The position numbers and the translations under genes are program-made. From contig NZ_AP023418.1 of assembly GCF_018408575.1 (NCBI RefSeq), forward strand, positions 124,001 to 188,000: 64,000 nucleotides of DNA. Direction: 5' to 3'. The notes below the pieces were generated by a model, which made no database searches, was not told the origin of the DNA, and saw nothing but the letters and a program-made list of their open reading frames with translations. Positions 24,169 through 32,561 of this stretch are shown one piece after another. Position 1 is the first letter of the stretch. Each line of letters begins with the position of its first letter. Source of the stretch: Vescimonas coprocola (GTDB lineage Bacteria > Bacillota > Clostridia > Oscillospirales > Oscillospiraceae).

Positions 24169-24231
24169 GGCGAACGGCGGGAATTTTCCTGTAAAATTTC
24201 TATGAATGGCGCTTTATCTCCCGGCCAGAGT

Positions 24232-24241
24232 ATGGTATACT
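24232..24241 (+). promoter_or_regulatory. Extended -10 of the rlmB operon
   Basis: TGGTATACT ends at 24241, with no good -35 hexamer. It lies 37 bases before the rlmB start. Confidence 0.6.
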
Positions 24242-24277
24242 GAAACCAATTATGTATGCATTGCGAGGAAAATTCCT

Positions 24278-25048
24278 ATGAGAGACAACGAACAGAGACG
24301 GCCGGAGGCAGAGGCGGACGGCATCATCGAGGGCCGCAACGCCGTGATCGAGGCCCTGCGGGCCGGAACGACCATGGATAAGATCTATCTGGCCAAGGGG
24401 GAGACGGACAAGACCTTGGGCCACATCGCCTCCAAGGCACGGGCCCAGGGCATCGTGGTGGTGGAGGCCGACCGGCGGAAGCTGGACAATATGAGCCGCA
24501 CCCACGCCCATCAGGGGGTCATTGCGCTGGCTGCCGTGCGGGAGTATGTGACGGTGCAGAGCCTGCTGGACGCTGCCGCCGCCAAGGGGGAGCCGCCGCT
24601 GCTGGTGGTCTGCGATGAGATCTCCGACCCCCACAATCTGGGGGCCATCCTCCGTACCGCCGAGTGCGCCGGAGCCCACGGGGTCATCATCCCCAAACGC
24701 CGCAGCGCCGGTCTGACGGCCATTGTGGCCAAGACCTCCGCCGGAGCCGTCAGCTATATGCCGGTGGCACGGGTGGCCAATATCCCGTCCCTGCTGAAGG
24801 ATCTGAAAAAGCAGGGCATCTGGGTGTTCGGCACTGCCGCCGAGGGAACGACCCGGCTCTATGACGCCGATCTCAAGGGCCCGGCGGCCATTGTCATCGG
24901 CTCCGAGGGCGACGGCATGAGCCGGCTGGTGGCGGAGAACTGCGATTTTCTGGTGAGCATCCCCATGCGGGGGAGGATCTCTTCCCTGAACGCATCGGCG
25001 GCGGCTGCCATCCTGCTGTATGAGGCGGTGCGGCAGCGCACCGTGTAA
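24278..25048 (+). CDS. rlmB: TrmH/RlmB family 23S rRNA (guanosine-2'-O)-methyltransferase
   Basis: 256 residues. ATG 24278 follows GAGGAAA. The N-terminal L30e-like substrate-binding domain begins at IIEGRNAVIEAL. The SPOUT catalytic domain carries the three motifs DPHNLGAILRTAE (near residue 120), IVIGSEGDGMS (near 205) and IPMRGRISSLNASAAAAI (near 225). It 2'-O-methylates a guanosine in 23S rRNA (G2251 in E. coli numbering for RlmB). It is co-transcribed with the P-type-ATPase-like gene 29 bases downstream. Confidence 0.92.
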   Translation: MRDNEQRRPEAEADGIIEGRNAVIEALRAGTTMDKIYLAKGETDKTLGHIASKARAQGIVVVEADRRKLDNMSRTHAHQGVIALAAVREYVTVQSLLDAAAAKGEPPLLVVCDEISDPHNLGAILRTAECAGAHGVIIPKRRSAGLTAIVAKTSAGAVSYMPVARVANIPSLLKDLKKQGIWVFGTAAEGTTRLYDADLKGPAAIVIGSEGDGMSRLVAENCDFLVSIPMRGRISSLNASAAAAILLYEAVRQRTV

Positions 25049-25077: not shown

Positions 25078-27414
25078 ATGGAACACCGAGAGGATCACAA
25101 CGAAATACCGGAGTTTACCCTGGAGGATATTCTGGCGGAGTTCGGCAGCGGCAGCGACCTGTACCGGACGGAGGATCTGCCTGCGGAGGAAAACTCCCCG
25201 GAGCCTGCTCCGGCAGAAGCCCCTGCTCAGCAGAAAGCTCCCGCAGAGCCGGAGCCCCACGCTGAACCGGAGACCTCTGCTGCGGTGAAAACCACCCAAC
25301 AGCCGGAGGGACTGCGATTCACCCCCGGCGCCGACCCGGTGGATATGGATTTCCCGGCGGAGGTGCTGGAGGAGGTATTTTCCTCCGGCGGCCCATTGCT
25401 GCCGGAGGAGGACCGGCCGTCCGAAACCCAGATCATCCACTTCCCGCACCAACCGGTACCGGAGGAGGACGGGAAACCGGCGGCGGAGACCGCCCCCGAA
25501 GAAGTACCCGCAGAGGAGAAGGCCCCGGAGGAGGAACCGGCGGAGGAGCCGCAGGGATCAGCGGAGCCAGAGGAGCCACCCAAGGTCTCCTTAGAGCAGA
25601 TCATGAACGACACGGTCTCCTCCGTGCTGGAGGAGCAGGAGGACGGCATTCTGGAGGAACGCCCACCCCTGCGAGAGGTGCTGCGGCACTGGTGGGAGAA
25701 GCTGACAAGGCCACGCACCGCCACCCCCATCCCGCAGGATACGGAGACTCTGTGGGAGCAGCCGCAGGAGCCTCAGCCGGAGCCGGAACCCGATCCGGAG
25801 CCGGATATGGACGTGGCCGTCCGGGCCGAGAAGCGCCGCTGCGCCCGCTTAAAACGCCAGTGCTGGTGCGTGCTGCCGGAGGCGGTGTTGCTGACGGTGC
25901 TGTCCGTGCTGGACGGGCTGGGGCTGTATGTTCCCCAGCTGTGGGCGGCATTGCCCGTGCTGCGGGGGATCATCCCCGGCGGATTGCTGCTGCTGGCACT
26001 GGCCCTGTCGGGCCGGGTCTGGCGCAGCGCCCGCAAGCAGCTGTCCCAGCGCCGCATCACCTGCGAGACGGCGGCGCTGCTGGCATCGCTGGTGTGTTTG
26101 GGGGACTGCGTCTACGCCGCCTTGGGCTGCGGGGAGCAGCTGCCGCTGGCGGCCGTCCCGGTCATCTCCCTGCTGCTGTGTCTGTGGGGCCAGCTGCTGG
26201 CGGCCAAAGCCCGGCTCGCAGGCTTCCGGCTGGCCGATCTGGGGGGTGAGCCGCCCTATAACGTATCCGTGACTCCCGCCGGGGCCTGCAAGCAGCAGGG
26301 AACGGCGGAGGGCTTCTACCGGCTCTCCCACCAGCCGGATGTCTCCTATCGCTGGCAGATCATCCTGACACCGCTGGCGCTGGCCGCTACCTCCATTTTG
26401 GCGGCGGTGGTGTGCTTCGGCGGGGAGGGGCAGCCGGTGCGGCCCCTGTGGATCTGGTCGGCGCTGCTGTCCGGCGGGCTGCCGCTGGCTCTGCCGGTGG
26501 CGGGAACGCTGCCCCTGTCATCGTTGAACCGGCGTCTGAACCGTAGCGGCAGCGCCGTGGCGGGCTATGCCGGGGCCTCCGCCATCACCGCCGCCCGGCG
26601 GATGGTGGTGACGGATGACGACCTGTTCCCACCGGGAACGGTGAGCCTCAACGGACTGAAGCTGTACGGCGAGGAGATCGGCAAGGTGGTGTCCTATGCC
26701 GCCACGGCGGCACAGGCCGCCGGAAGCCAGCTGACGCCGCTGTTTGACCAGCTGCTGGCCAGCGAGGGCGGCACCCACCTGCATTTGGAGGACCTGCGTT
26801 TTTACGAGGACGGCGGCATCGGCGGTACCATCCGTGGGGAATCTGTCACCATGGGCAGCGCCTATTTCATGAAAAAGCACCATGTGTCCCTGCCCCGTGA
26901 CCTGAAGCTCAAGACCGGCGTTTTTCTGGCGGTGGACGGTCAGCTCATCGCCATCTTTGCCATCAAATACCAGCCCTCCCGCAACGTGGAGTGGGCCCTG
27001 CGGGCCATGCGCCGCAACCGCATCACTCCGGTGCTGGCCACCCGCAGCGCCAACATCACTCCGGCGCTGCTGAAGCGGAAATTCCGGCTGGACGCCCGGC
27101 CCCTGTACCCGGATATCTCCACCCGTCTGGCCCTGTCGGAGCTGACGGAGGGCCGTGGCCGGCCCCACGCCATCATCTACCGGGACGGGCTGATGGCCTT
27201 TGCCGAAACGGTCATCGGCAGCCGCCGGATGCGGCGTGCCGTCCGGGACGGAACGGTGCTGTCGTGGCTGGGCGGGCTGTCGGGCCTGCTGCTGGCGTAT
27301 TATTTCACCTCCGTGGGGGCCTTTGCCGCTCTGTCGGCCCTGAATTTCCTGTGTTTTTTGCTGCTGTGGCTGCTGACGGTGCTGCTGCTGGCAGGACTGG
27401 TGCGCCACTACTGA
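25078..27414 (+). CDS. Degenerate P-type ATPase-like membrane protein with long acidic N-terminus
   Basis: 778 residues with a GAGAGG site. Residues 1-245 are Pro/Glu/Ala-rich and probably disordered; the start (EFTLEDILAEFG) may be a short docking motif. Then come membrane helices arranged as in P1B-type ATPases, an A-domain-sized gap, more helices, a P/N-domain-like part and two C-terminal helices. At the DKTGTLT position the sequence reads MVVTDDDLFPPGTVS (aspartates at 513-515). The TGD and GDGxND motifs are also lost, while GSAYFMKKHHV and FLAVDGQLIAIFAIKY keep N/P-domain spacing. Ion pumping is therefore unlikely; a scaffold or sensor role is inference. Confidence 0.7.
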   Translation: MEHREDHNEIPEFTLEDILAEFGSGSDLYRTEDLPAEENSPEPAPAEAPAQQKAPAEPEPHAEPETSAAVKTTQQPEGLRFTPGADPVDMDFPAEVLEEVFSSGGPLLPEEDRPSETQIIHFPHQPVPEEDGKPAAETAPEEVPAEEKAPEEEPAEEPQGSAEPEEPPKVSLEQIMNDTVSSVLEEQEDGILEERPPLREVLRHWWEKLTRPRTATPIPQDTETLWEQPQEPQPEPEPDPEPDMDVAVRAEKRRCARLKRQCWCVLPEAVLLTVLSVLDGLGLYVPQLWAALPVLRGIIPGGLLLLALALSGRVWRSARKQLSQRRITCETAALLASLVCLGDCVYAALGCGEQLPLAAVPVISLLLCLWGQLLAAKARLAGFRLADLGGEPPYNVSVTPAGACKQQGTAEGFYRLSHQPDVSYRWQIILTPLALAATSILAAVVCFGGEGQPVRPLWIWSALLSGGLPLALPVAGTLPLSSLNRRLNRSGSAVAGYAGASAITAARRMVVTDDDLFPPGTVSLNGLKLYGEEIGKVVSYAATAAQAAGSQLTPLFDQLLASEGGTHLHLEDLRFYEDGGIGGTIRGESVTMGSAYFMKKHHVSLPRDLKLKTGVFLAVDGQLIAIFAIKYQPSRNVEWALRAMRRNRITPVLATRSANITPALLKRKFRLDARPLYPDISTRLALSELTEGRGRPHAIIYRDGLMAFAETVIGSRRMRRAVRDGTVLSWLGGLSGLLLAYYFTSVGAFAALSALNFLCFLLLWLLTVLLLAGLVRHY

Positions 27415-27429
27415 TACCATTCCATACCC

Positions 27430-27465
27430 ATGCCGGGAGAGCCAAAGGCTCTCCCGGCATTTTTC
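27430..27465 (+). terminator. Terminator of the rlmB/P-ATPase-like operon
   Basis: A 14-bp perfect stem (27430-27443/27447-27460) with an AAA loop and TTTTC tail. Confidence 0.9.
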
Positions 27466-27490: not shown

Positions 27491-27519
27491 TTGTCAAGTG
27501 CAAAAAAATAGTATATACT
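27491..27519 (+). promoter_or_regulatory. Promoter of the EF-G paralogue
   Basis: TTGTCA (27491-27496), 17 bp, TATACT (27514-27519), with an A-rich spacer. Confidence 0.85.
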
Positions 27520-27581: not shown

Positions 27582-29645
27582 ATGACTGCCAATGACATTC
27601 GCAACATCTGCCTGCTGGGTCACGGTGGCTCCGGCAAGACGACTCTGGCCGAGCAGATGCTCTTCATGACCAAGGGAACGGATCGTCTGGGCCGTACCGC
27701 CGACGGCAACACCGTCTGCGACTACGACGCCGAGGAGATCAAGCGCCAGATCTCTATTTCTCTGGCCTTTGCCCCGGTCAAATATAAGGACGTCCGCATC
27801 AACGTCATGGACGCTCCCGGCAACTTTGATTTCTCCGGCGAGGCCATTTCTGCCATCCGTGCTGCCGAGTGCGCCGTGCTGGTGGGTGCCGCCAAGGACG
27901 GCCTGTCCGTGGGTATGGAGCGCAGCTGGAAGCTGCTGGGCAAGAAGCCCCGCATGATCTTCGTCAACCGCACCGACGAGGACAACAGCGACTATCAGGC
28001 CTGCCTGGATGCTCTGAAGGGCAAGTTCGGCCAGTCCGTGGTTCCCATTGTGGCCCCGGTCATTGACGGCAACAAGAAGGTCACGGGCATCGTGGATCTG
28101 CTGCATAACACCGCTTACGAGGTCAAGGGCGGCAAGGTCGCTGCCTGCGCCATTCCTGCCGATATGGCCGACGAGGTGGAGGCCCTGCGGGCCGAACTGA
28201 TGGAGGCCGCCGCCGGCTCTGACGAGGAGCTGATGGAGAAGTTCTTCGACACCATGGAGCTGTCCGCCGAGGACATGGCCCGCGGCCTGAAGCTGGGCGT
28301 CCGGGACGGCAGCGTTTGCCCGGTGCTGTGCGGCTCCGCCGTCACCGGCTTGGGCGTGGAGATGCTGATGCAGACCATCGTGGATCTGGTCCCCGTGGCC
28401 ACAGATATGCCGGCTGAGACGGCGCAGGATGACGACGGCAACGACGTCGAGGTGGCCTGCGATCCCAACGGCCCCACCGCTGCCATCGTCTTTAAGACCA
28501 TCTCTGACCAGTACGGTAAGTACTCCATGGTGAAGGTGCTCCGTGGCAGGATCACCAGCGATATGGCCCTGTATAACCCCGCCACCGGCAACACCGAGAA
28601 GCTGGGCCGCCTGTACATCATGAAGGGCAAGAAGGGCGAGGAGGTCAAGGAGATCTGCTGCGGCGACATCGGCGCCATCGGCAAGATGGATAAGGTCAAG
28701 ACCGGCAACACCCTGTGCGACCCCAAGCGCATCGTGCGTCTCCACGGCATGGATTATGCCCAGCCCTGCTACAGCCGTGCCATCTCCCCCAAGACCAAGC
28801 AGGAGGTGGAGAAGCTGGGTACCGGCCTCAACAAGCTCAACGAAGAGGACCCCACCTTCCATGTGGTCAACAACGCCGAGACCCACCAGACCGTGATCTC
28901 CGGCGCCGGCGATATCCAGATCGACGTGCTGTGCTCCAAGCTCAAGACCCGCTTCGGCGTGGATGCCGAGCTGTCCGCTCCCAGAGTGGCTTACCGTGAG
29001 AAGATCCGCTCCACCGTCCGCAAGCAGGGCCGCTATAAGAAGCAGACCGGCGGCAGCGGCCAGTTCGGTGACGTGCATATCATCTTCGAGCCTCAGACCG
29101 AGCAGGAGGATATGATCTTCGCTGAGAACGTGTTCGGCGGCTCCGTGCCAAAGAACTACTTCCCCGCCGTGGAAAAGGGCCTGCGTGAGAGCTGCCTGCA
29201 CGGCGTGCTGGCGGGCTATCCCGTGGTGTACCTGAAGGCGACGCTGGTGGACGGCTCCTACCACCCGGTGGACTCCTCCGAAATCGCTTTCAAGCTGGCC
29301 GCCAATCTGGCCTTCAAGGCCGCTCTGCCGGAGGCCAAGCCCGTGCTGATGGAGCCCATCGGTGAGCTGAAGGTCACGGTGCCTGACAACTACGTGGGCG
29401 ACGTCATGGGTGACCTGAACAAGCGCCGGGGCCGCGTCATGGGCATGAACCCCACCGGCGACGGCGAGACCGTGCTGGAGGCCGAGGTTCCCATGGCCGA
29501 GATGATGAGCTACGCCATCGATCTGCGGTCCATGACCCAGTCCCGTGGTACCTTCACCTTCAACTTCGTCCGCTACGAGGATTGCCCCGCTGCGGCGCAG
29601 GAGAAGGCCATTGCCGAGGCCAAGGCTCTGGCCGATGCCGAGTAA
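27582..29645 (+). CDS. Elongation factor G paralogue (EF-G-like GTPase with non-canonical switch II)
   Basis: 687 residues with AAGGGAG before ATG 27582. All EF-G domains are present: G domain, domain II (about 285-370), and domains III-V ending with YVGDVMGDLNKRRGRVMGM and the domain IV/V block. Unlike translational EF-G, the P-loop is GHGGSGKT instead of AHIDAGKT, switch II is DAPGNFDF instead of DTPGHVDF, and the NKxD motif is NRTD. The missing histidine is the residue that activates water for GTP hydrolysis. This places it in the EF-G-like group found beside a canonical fusA. It stands alone with a strong promoter, and its function is probably a specialised ribosome factor. Confidence 0.85.
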   Translation: MTANDIRNICLLGHGGSGKTTLAEQMLFMTKGTDRLGRTADGNTVCDYDAEEIKRQISISLAFAPVKYKDVRINVMDAPGNFDFSGEAISAIRAAECAVLVGAAKDGLSVGMERSWKLLGKKPRMIFVNRTDEDNSDYQACLDALKGKFGQSVVPIVAPVIDGNKKVTGIVDLLHNTAYEVKGGKVAACAIPADMADEVEALRAELMEAAAGSDEELMEKFFDTMELSAEDMARGLKLGVRDGSVCPVLCGSAVTGLGVEMLMQTIVDLVPVATDMPAETAQDDDGNDVEVACDPNGPTAAIVFKTISDQYGKYSMVKVLRGRITSDMALYNPATGNTEKLGRLYIMKGKKGEEVKEICCGDIGAIGKMDKVKTGNTLCDPKRIVRLHGMDYAQPCYSRAISPKTKQEVEKLGTGLNKLNEEDPTFHVVNNAETHQTVISGAGDIQIDVLCSKLKTRFGVDAELSAPRVAYREKIRSTVRKQGRYKKQTGGSGQFGDVHIIFEPQTEQEDMIFAENVFGGSVPKNYFPAVEKGLRESCLHGVLAGYPVVYLKATLVDGSYHPVDSSEIAFKLAANLAFKAALPEAKPVLMEPIGELKVTVPDNYVGDVMGDLNKRRGRVMGMNPTGDGETVLEAEVPMAEMMSYAIDLRSMTQSRGTFTFNFVRYEDCPAAAQEKAIAEAKALADAE

Positions 29646-32147: not shown

Positions 32148-32556
32148 GAAACCGCCGCAGGAGATGCGGCGGTTTCTGGGCCAGCCAAAAGAGCGGGAAC
32201 CTTTCGTCAACGGGGCGGAAGGGTGTGTGCGGGAAACCCGGGAAGGGTGTCCTGCACGATGATGATCATCATTTTTCAGGGCTTTTTGAAGCTCTGAAAA
32301 ATGTCTCGTCGTGGCGAAAAGACTTTTTCGCCACGACGAAACCGCTGCAGGAGATGCGGCGGTTTCTGGGCCAGCCAAAAGAGCGGGAACCTTTCGTCAA
32401 CGGGGCGGAAGGGTGTGTGCGGGAAACCCGGAAGGGGTGTCCTGCACGATGATGATCATCATTTTTCAGAGCTTTTTGAAGCTCTGAAAAATGTCTCGTC
32501 GTGGCGAAAAGACTTTTTCGACACGACGAAACCGCCGCAGGAGATGCGGCGGTTTC
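32148..32556. repeat. 190-bp hairpin-rich tandem repeat (two full units and a partial third)
   Basis: Near-identical units start at 32148 and 32338, and a 29-bp terminal copy at 32528. Each unit opens with a perfect hairpin GAAACCGCC...GGCGGTTTC. It also contains the palindrome ATGATGATCATCAT, a hairpin with arms TTTTCAGAGC/GCTCTGAAAA, and a long hairpin with arms GTCGTGGCGAAAA/TTTTTCGCCACGAC. Differences between units are few, so the duplication is recent or maintained. It lies between a deacetylase and a merR gene, both on the minus strand. Confidence 0.95.
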
Positions 32557-32561
32557 TTTCA

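Follow-up and report, generated by a model that had tools for sequence, protein, structure and literature searches.

The rlmB/pseudo-pump locus

We analyzed a 64,000-nucleotide (nt) stretch of contig NZ_AP023418.1 of Vescimonas coprocola (hereafter the window, whose coordinates are used throughout), in which the gene directly behind rlmB encodes a relative of copper-transporting P1B-type ATPases that lacks their catalytic motifs, here called the pseudo-pump. A preliminary description of this gene was confirmed overall, the open reading frame (ORF) being real and occupying 25078-27414 (+) with a product of 778 residues. Between the rlmB stop and the pseudo-pump start lie 29 nt with no terminator-like site listed within them. 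Because of this short gap, a hairpin after the second gene and a separate promoter-like site for the next one, rlmB and the pseudo-pump gene look like a two-gene unit on these sequence signals. The features of the locus are as follows:

24206..25048, +: rlmB, 23S rRNA (guanosine-2251)-2′-O-methyltransferase, first gene of the pair (TIGR00186 above cut-off; adjacent in 57/58 loci)
25078..27414, +: pseudo-pump gene, 778 residues, putative P1B-ATPase-derived pseudoenzyme (ORF, profile alignments, model, fold search)
25078..25806, +: acidic Pro/Glu-rich tail, mostly disordered, residues 1-243 (composition and predicted local distance difference test, pLDDT)
25114..25146, +: helix motif 1, FTLEDILAEFG, residues 13-23, short and conserved (orthologue pattern, invariant columns)
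25585..25638, +: helix motif 2, VSLEQIMNDTVSSVLEEQ, residues 170-187, short and conserved (conserved columns, model helix 172-189)
25807..26235, +: first helix block, presumably the P1B MA, MB, M1 and M2 positions, residues 244-386 (model helices, hhalign)
26236..26340, +: linker of about 35 residues in place of the actuator (A) domain with TGES (template-only gap in hhalign; two strands only in the model)
26341..26544, +: M3 and M4 positions, CPC metal motif absent (model, hhalign; CP[CH] in 0/87 rows)
26614..26631, +: DDDLFP (D513-P518) replacing DKTGT (513 and 515 both acidic in 27/31 order-wide rows)
26668..26973, +: nucleotide-binding (N) domain, contributing more highly conserved columns than any other part (21/52 top-decile columns)
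27040..27063, +: TRSANITP replacing TGDN, relatives usually having DxN-I/V-T (N659 in 28/31 rows, D657 in 24/31)
27190..27408, +: M5 and M6 positions, preceding GDGxND segment missing (hhalign, model; G[DE]GxND in 0/87)
27430..27460, +: terminator-like hairpin after the pair (14 bp, -29.3 kcal/mol, z -8.5, then a U run; absent from the pattern-scan list)
27491..27519, +: promoter-like site for the next gene (10/12 matches; the scan gave 2 promoter-like sites vs 0.5 expected)

Relationship to P1B-type ATPases

Searched as a single sequence, the protein gave weak evidence of kinship. The best NCBIfam match had an E-value of 0.015 and only sub-threshold P1B matches were obtained, TIGR01511 reaching 14.2 bits vs the 397 required; Pfam yielded no match near its cut-offs and none to HMA, and PADLOC none at E 0.01. 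The sequence search of the PDB returned nothing usable for the single sequence, whereas family profiles did yield matches. The CopA model PRK10671 was matched by 25 of 31 family members (best E 7e-17), hmmsearch of the family profile against Legionella CopA (3rfu) gave E 4e-33, and hhalign aligned the 31-orthologue profile with canonical CopA along its length (E 8e-40). The core of the AlphaFold model has a pLDDT of 91, with copper P1B-ATPases as the best fold-search matches.

Model, fold search and hhalign thus agree on a P-type fold with phosphorylation (P) and N domains and on the P1B helix layout that had been proposed for this protein; the structure prediction suggested as a check did return that fold. 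An A/N/P-like C-terminal half, as first described, holds for the N and P domains, the A domain being cut down to a linker of about 35 residues with one beta-hairpin. The hhalign alignment also indicates that the GDGxND segment is deleted relative to CopA.

Replacement of the catalytic motifs

Motif strings were checked on a set of 113 orthologue proteins (58 whole-genome loci and 55 named loci), which comprised 89 distinct sequences and, after two split ORFs were dropped, 87; the counts apply to these 87 rather than to all 276 order matches described below. Order-wide conservation counts refer to an alignment of 31 rows. DKTGT, TGE[ST], G[DE]GxND and CP[CH] each occur in 0/87 distinct orthologues. 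At the place of the CPx metal motif in M4, Pro 469 is kept in 23/31 rows. Looser strings were found occasionally: DK[TSQ]G in two of 87 rows (L041 and, within the tail, L033), TGD somewhere in 13 and [SE]HP somewhere in seven. The aligned TGD position reads otherwise, residues 655-657 being V/T/S/A, mostly R, and then D (57), S (25) or G (5) of 87, and His is not among the six commonest residues at position 550, where the His of SEHP would align (31 rows).

In the window's protein residues 511-523 read VTDDDLFPPGTVS, with aspartates at 513-515 where DKTGTLT would be expected, as had been described. Across the order this place reads D-x-D-[LI]-F-P, with position 513 acidic in 29/31 rows and 515 in 28/31, and the TGDN place mostly reads DxN-[IV]-T. 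In each of three profile alignments T512 takes the place of the catalytic Asp and D513 that of the Lys; shifting the register so that D513 meets the Asp is possible. The earlier view that DKTGTLT, the TGD hinge and GDGxND had been lost therefore extends from one protein to its orthologues, DKTGT being kept in none, so that a simple degenerate copy is not what was found. Loss of the catalytic motifs is fixed across orthologues that are under purifying selection, as expected of a pseudoenzyme, and predicts that catalysis is dead.

Conservation and selection

The ratio of nonsynonymous to synonymous substitution rates (dN/dS), estimated for the 15 closest pairs, was 0.04-0.20 in the core and 0.17-0.50 in the tail. 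Order-wide, the stretch 496-530 with DxDxFP has the highest mean conservation, followed by the N domain, which contains 21 of the 52 top-decile columns and in which G593 is kept in 31/31 rows and G580 in 30/31. Around the old active site, D513, D515, F517, P518, Y631, D657, N659 and T661 form high-conservation columns. Helix Trp, Pro, Gly and Phe are included among the 45 most conserved columns listed, which contain no Cys or His. By the core dN/dS the gene is not in decay, a state in which conservation of the former catalytic site with new letters would also be unexpected.

The preliminary description also noted about 245 Pro/Glu-rich residues ahead of the first helix, and composition bears this out: residues 1-245 contain 27% Asp plus Glu and 17% Pro, with a net charge of -51. 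The pLDDT is mostly <50 over residues 1-166, with weak modelled helices at 15-23, 95-101, 172-189 and 198-210. A relaxed pattern of motif 1 was recovered in 59/85 orthologue tails vs 0 in each of 50 shuffled sets, and its columns I18 and E21 are invariant across 54 rows. In motif 2, T179, V180 and V183 are near-invariant (54 rows), the pattern being present in only 32/85 orthologues. The DNA pattern of motif 1 occurs at two places in the own genome, the pseudo-pump gene and one that, by reading, is outside any likely gene; a docking motif shared with other proteins of this genome was rejected.

Distribution

Among relatives, 59/60 genomes match at E 1e-3. Oscillospiraceae, Oscillibacter and Dysosmobacter make up most of the named relatives, from which we take the window's order to be Oscillospirales. 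In the order sample, 276/295 genomes match at E 1e-40 (220/226 near-complete ones), the gene being single copy as a rule. Of these matches 271/276 lie beyond E 1e-60, and the other five (E 6e-51 to 2e-58), which were judged by score, fall within the range of the CopA of G070, a genome outside the order. G070 gave the one full-length match from outside the order in the class sample (E 7.5e-54) and was rejected as an orthologue, its ORF being an ordinary CopA with DKTGT and GDGIND.

A sample of 196 genomes of the class includes seven of the order, among them that of the window, and all seven give full-length matches of 290 bits or more. Outside the order, 176 of 189 genomes reach E 1e-10 or better. 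The top score there, 182 bits, belongs to an ordinary CopA; the remaining matches listed have at most 131.5 bits, mainly over the P1B M3-P-N part, and by score 0/189 genomes carry a pseudo-pump. The 23 best non-order matches (G070 and L066-L088) were inspected and all carry DKTGT, the rest being judged by score. In a phylum sample, 2/249 genomes match, namely the window's own and one of the same family. A relative of about 57-60% identity (L089) is titled Candidatus Cacconaster; NCBI files it under Bacteroidales, and its neighbours here are mostly Oscillospiraceae.

In six near-complete genomes of the order without a match at E 1e-40, all candidates were scored and only weaker P1B-like matches were found (best E 2e-33). 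In five of the six a close RlmB is missing as well; in the sixth, rlmB lies 422 nt short of the end of its contig, and the stretch after it is closed in the one frame read. RlmB was found in 159/159 near-complete genomes of the class sample. Since rlmB and the pseudo-pump gene are neighbours, an assembly gap explains the six absences as well as joint loss does. Two near-complete genomes of genus g192 (G288 and G358) are without both genes, by assembly gap or joint loss, and three other genomes of that genus have both.

Pairing with rlmB and gene neighbourhood

The linkage to an rRNA methyltransferase gene, which the preliminary description had read as co-transcription, is strongly supported. 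In 57/58 loci from 22 families rlmB immediately precedes the pseudo-pump gene in the same orientation (in L046, behind a split ORF). The same holds for 54/55 named loci, whose genomes overlap with the 58-locus set and of which the remaining one is truncated by a contig end, and by coordinates for 14/15 genomes of family f2 that have both genes. At the exception (L037:2637-6284), an L21-like and then an obgE-like gene (both named by reading) are followed, after 22 nt, by the pseudo-pump gene, with rlmB elsewhere. We take the obgE-like gene to encode a GTPase of 50S assembly. Outside the order, 27/28 rlmB loci examined had no family-profile match in a flank of about 1.5 kb.

The outer flanks vary (names by reading of sequences), with metK, MATE, lysC, tsaD or RNase R upstream and EF-G-like, era, isocitrate dehydrogenase or lon genes downstream. 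An EF-G-like gene comes next in 33/55 loci with room. In the window this next gene (27582-29645) has its own promoter-like site, and its best score came from a generic EF-G subfamily model. Farther downstream, 32148-32557 holds just over two tandem copies of a 190-nt unit of several palindromes, 97% identical, between two minus-strand genes for a polysaccharide deacetylase and a MerR-like regulator (by reading).

Origin

In five genomes (L192-L196) of family f42, which belongs to another order of the class, a CopA with all catalytic motifs intact and an N-terminal CxxC domain lies directly behind rlmB. This arrangement occurs in 5/14 genomes with rlmB in that order, and no other family with CopA-rlmB adjacency was seen among the matches listed, whose coordinates were compared by eye. 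The f42 gene shares with the pseudo-pump gene its place and strand behind rlmB and its P1B body; unlike the pseudo-pump it keeps the catalytic motifs and the CxxC domain, and a sister relationship is unsupported by the trees. In the RlmB tree, f42 falls among other Clostridia (Shimodaira-Hasegawa-like approximate likelihood ratio test, SH-aLRT, 95), separated from every row of the window's order but one, which speaks against close kinship; the same quick tree also splits the window's order. The pump tree unites the pseudo-pumps in a single clade (SH-aLRT 100); its very long branch has an unsure place among P1B pumps and drew long-branch warnings. The f42 arrangement is thus a candidate for the ancestral state, a descent confirmed by neither tree.

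Interpretation

Profile alignments and the structural model together show what is best described as a predicted P1B body lacking its motor parts, retained under selection and paired with rlmB. Rather than a single degenerate gene, this is an order-wide family of pseudo-pumps whose site has been rebuilt and whose genomic partner is fixed, and a copper pump seems to have been put to a different use. We favour a catalytically retired CopA-like P1B ATPase, kept order-wide behind rlmB, that would work as a membrane-anchored sensor or scaffold (probability about 0.5), because the N domain and the former active site are where conservation is densest. Such a pseudo-pump would not pump. Its N domain and rebuilt pocket (D513, D515, F517, P518, Y631, D657 or S657, N659 and T661) may bind a nucleotide or a metal ion; binding might alter the cytosolic head, and the long acidic tail could relay the change, with its two short helical motifs as presumed docking sites for partner proteins. 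The pairing with rlmB suggests partners in ribosome or envelope biogenesis. Fold, motif loss, deletions and purifying selection thus speak for the pseudo-pump of the preliminary description, and the conserved gene order speaks strongly for its methyltransferase linkage; among the roles it offered, scaffold, chaperone and sensor, the pattern of conservation would favour sensor or scaffold, and no result spoke for a chaperone.

Several observations weigh against a sensor or scaffold of this kind. At 550 the His of SEHP has given way, mostly to S or G, and GxG does not consistently retain its first Gly (31 rows), so nucleotide binding may be gone. Position 657 is S or G in 7/31 rows, the window's protein included, and the single most conserved column, W764, lies in the last helix, outside the pocket. 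Motif 1 was modelled undocked with a middling pLDDT of about 62, one orthologue (L051) has only about 20 residues ahead of the core, and the downstream EF-G-like gene is not general (9/26 order-level loci). The ligand, the partners and the meeting of the pocket residues in space are at most predicted.

A purely structural scaffold, whose head and pocket bind nothing small, whose conserved residues serve only to maintain the fold or to offer a surface for proteins and whose tail recruits partners, would fit the loss of the Mg-binding loop by deletion, the long acidic tail with its short motifs and the make-up of the most conserved columns; the acidic pair, Tyr and Asn conserved where catalysis once took place look more like a kept binding site, as do the many conserved N-domain columns, and we consider this alternative possible but rather unlikely. 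DxD is the general motif I of haloacid dehalogenase (HAD) proteins, and with 513 and 515 so often acidic together, D513 or D515 might take phosphate in a HAD-like site and drive a changed cycle. A precedent is claimed for ERMA/TMEM94, where transport was reportedly lost on mutating the Asp of a DKQGI loop in a protein without GDGVND and TGES (PMC13322241). Against an active enzyme or transporter stand the deletion of the whole A domain, rather than of TGES alone, the absence of the GDGxND segment and CPC, the placing of T512, not D513, on the catalytic Asp, and the account of another group of no ATPase activity in TMEM94 (PMC12134183); we regard such activity as quite doubtful. That the gene is a copper pump in decay is highly improbable and was already disfavoured: fast divergence, long branches in the pump tree and a split ORF in 2/58 loci (L046 and L054) point that way, and order-wide retention, a single inner stop among the matches listed and the low dN/dS of the core argue against it.

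Independently of these alternatives, the pairing with rlmB may well be a transcriptional convenience (a shared promoter or translational coupling) with no functional meaning, although we lean slightly against this. It would accord with L037 and with the rlmB loci outside the order, where RlmB therefore works without the pseudo-pump; it sits less easily with a pair kept in so many families despite changing outer flanks, and with a lone exception that is again behind what we take to be the gene of a 50S-assembly GTPase. Were the linkage functional, the order might have turned a copper pump, perhaps descended directly from a CopA standing behind rlmB in another order, into a membrane sensor whose phosphorylation site was rebuilt as a ligand pocket and which reports nucleotide or ion state to 50S maturation via RlmB or its neighbours; this full scenario is speculative and, taken whole, unlikely. 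From sequence, a nucleotide- or metal-binding membrane sensor or scaffold that would signal through its tail remains the favoured function.

Comparison with known systems

Our literature search, in which subscription papers were thinly covered, turned up no account of an order-wide bacterial pseudo-P-type ATPase or of the pseudo-pump family; papers on uncharacterized P-type families (FUPA) reportedly exist. The gene is near-universal in the sampled genomes of a major gut order, so its function would bear on the basic physiology of that order, and the rlmB pairing offers a concrete starting point for finding it.

With P1B copper ATPases (CopA, including Legionella CopA 3rfu, and ATP7B) the pseudo-pump shares the helix layout, the P and N domains and the order of segments. 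Unlike them, it is without DKTGT, TGES, GDGxND and CPC, has the A domain and GDGxND segment deleted, has no Pfam HMA match, and carries the long acidic tail and the order-wide pairing with rlmB. ERMA/TMEM94 likewise combines P-type architecture with an altered DKTGT and the absence of TGES and GDGVND (PMC13322241, PMC12134183). Compared by description only, ERMA differs in being a eukaryotic protein of the endoplasmic reticulum membrane that keeps an A-like domain and DKQGI, whereas the pseudo-pump has lost its A domain. For TMEM94, one group gives a micromolar affinity for β,γ-methyleneadenosine 5′-triphosphate (AMPPCP) without ATPase activity (PMC12134183), and another reports transport (PMC13322241). 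By analogy, TMEM94 may serve as a precedent, itself of disputed function, for nucleotide binding without turnover, and the pseudo-pump would add a prokaryotic case to the dispute over whether a motorless P-type body can keep a job.
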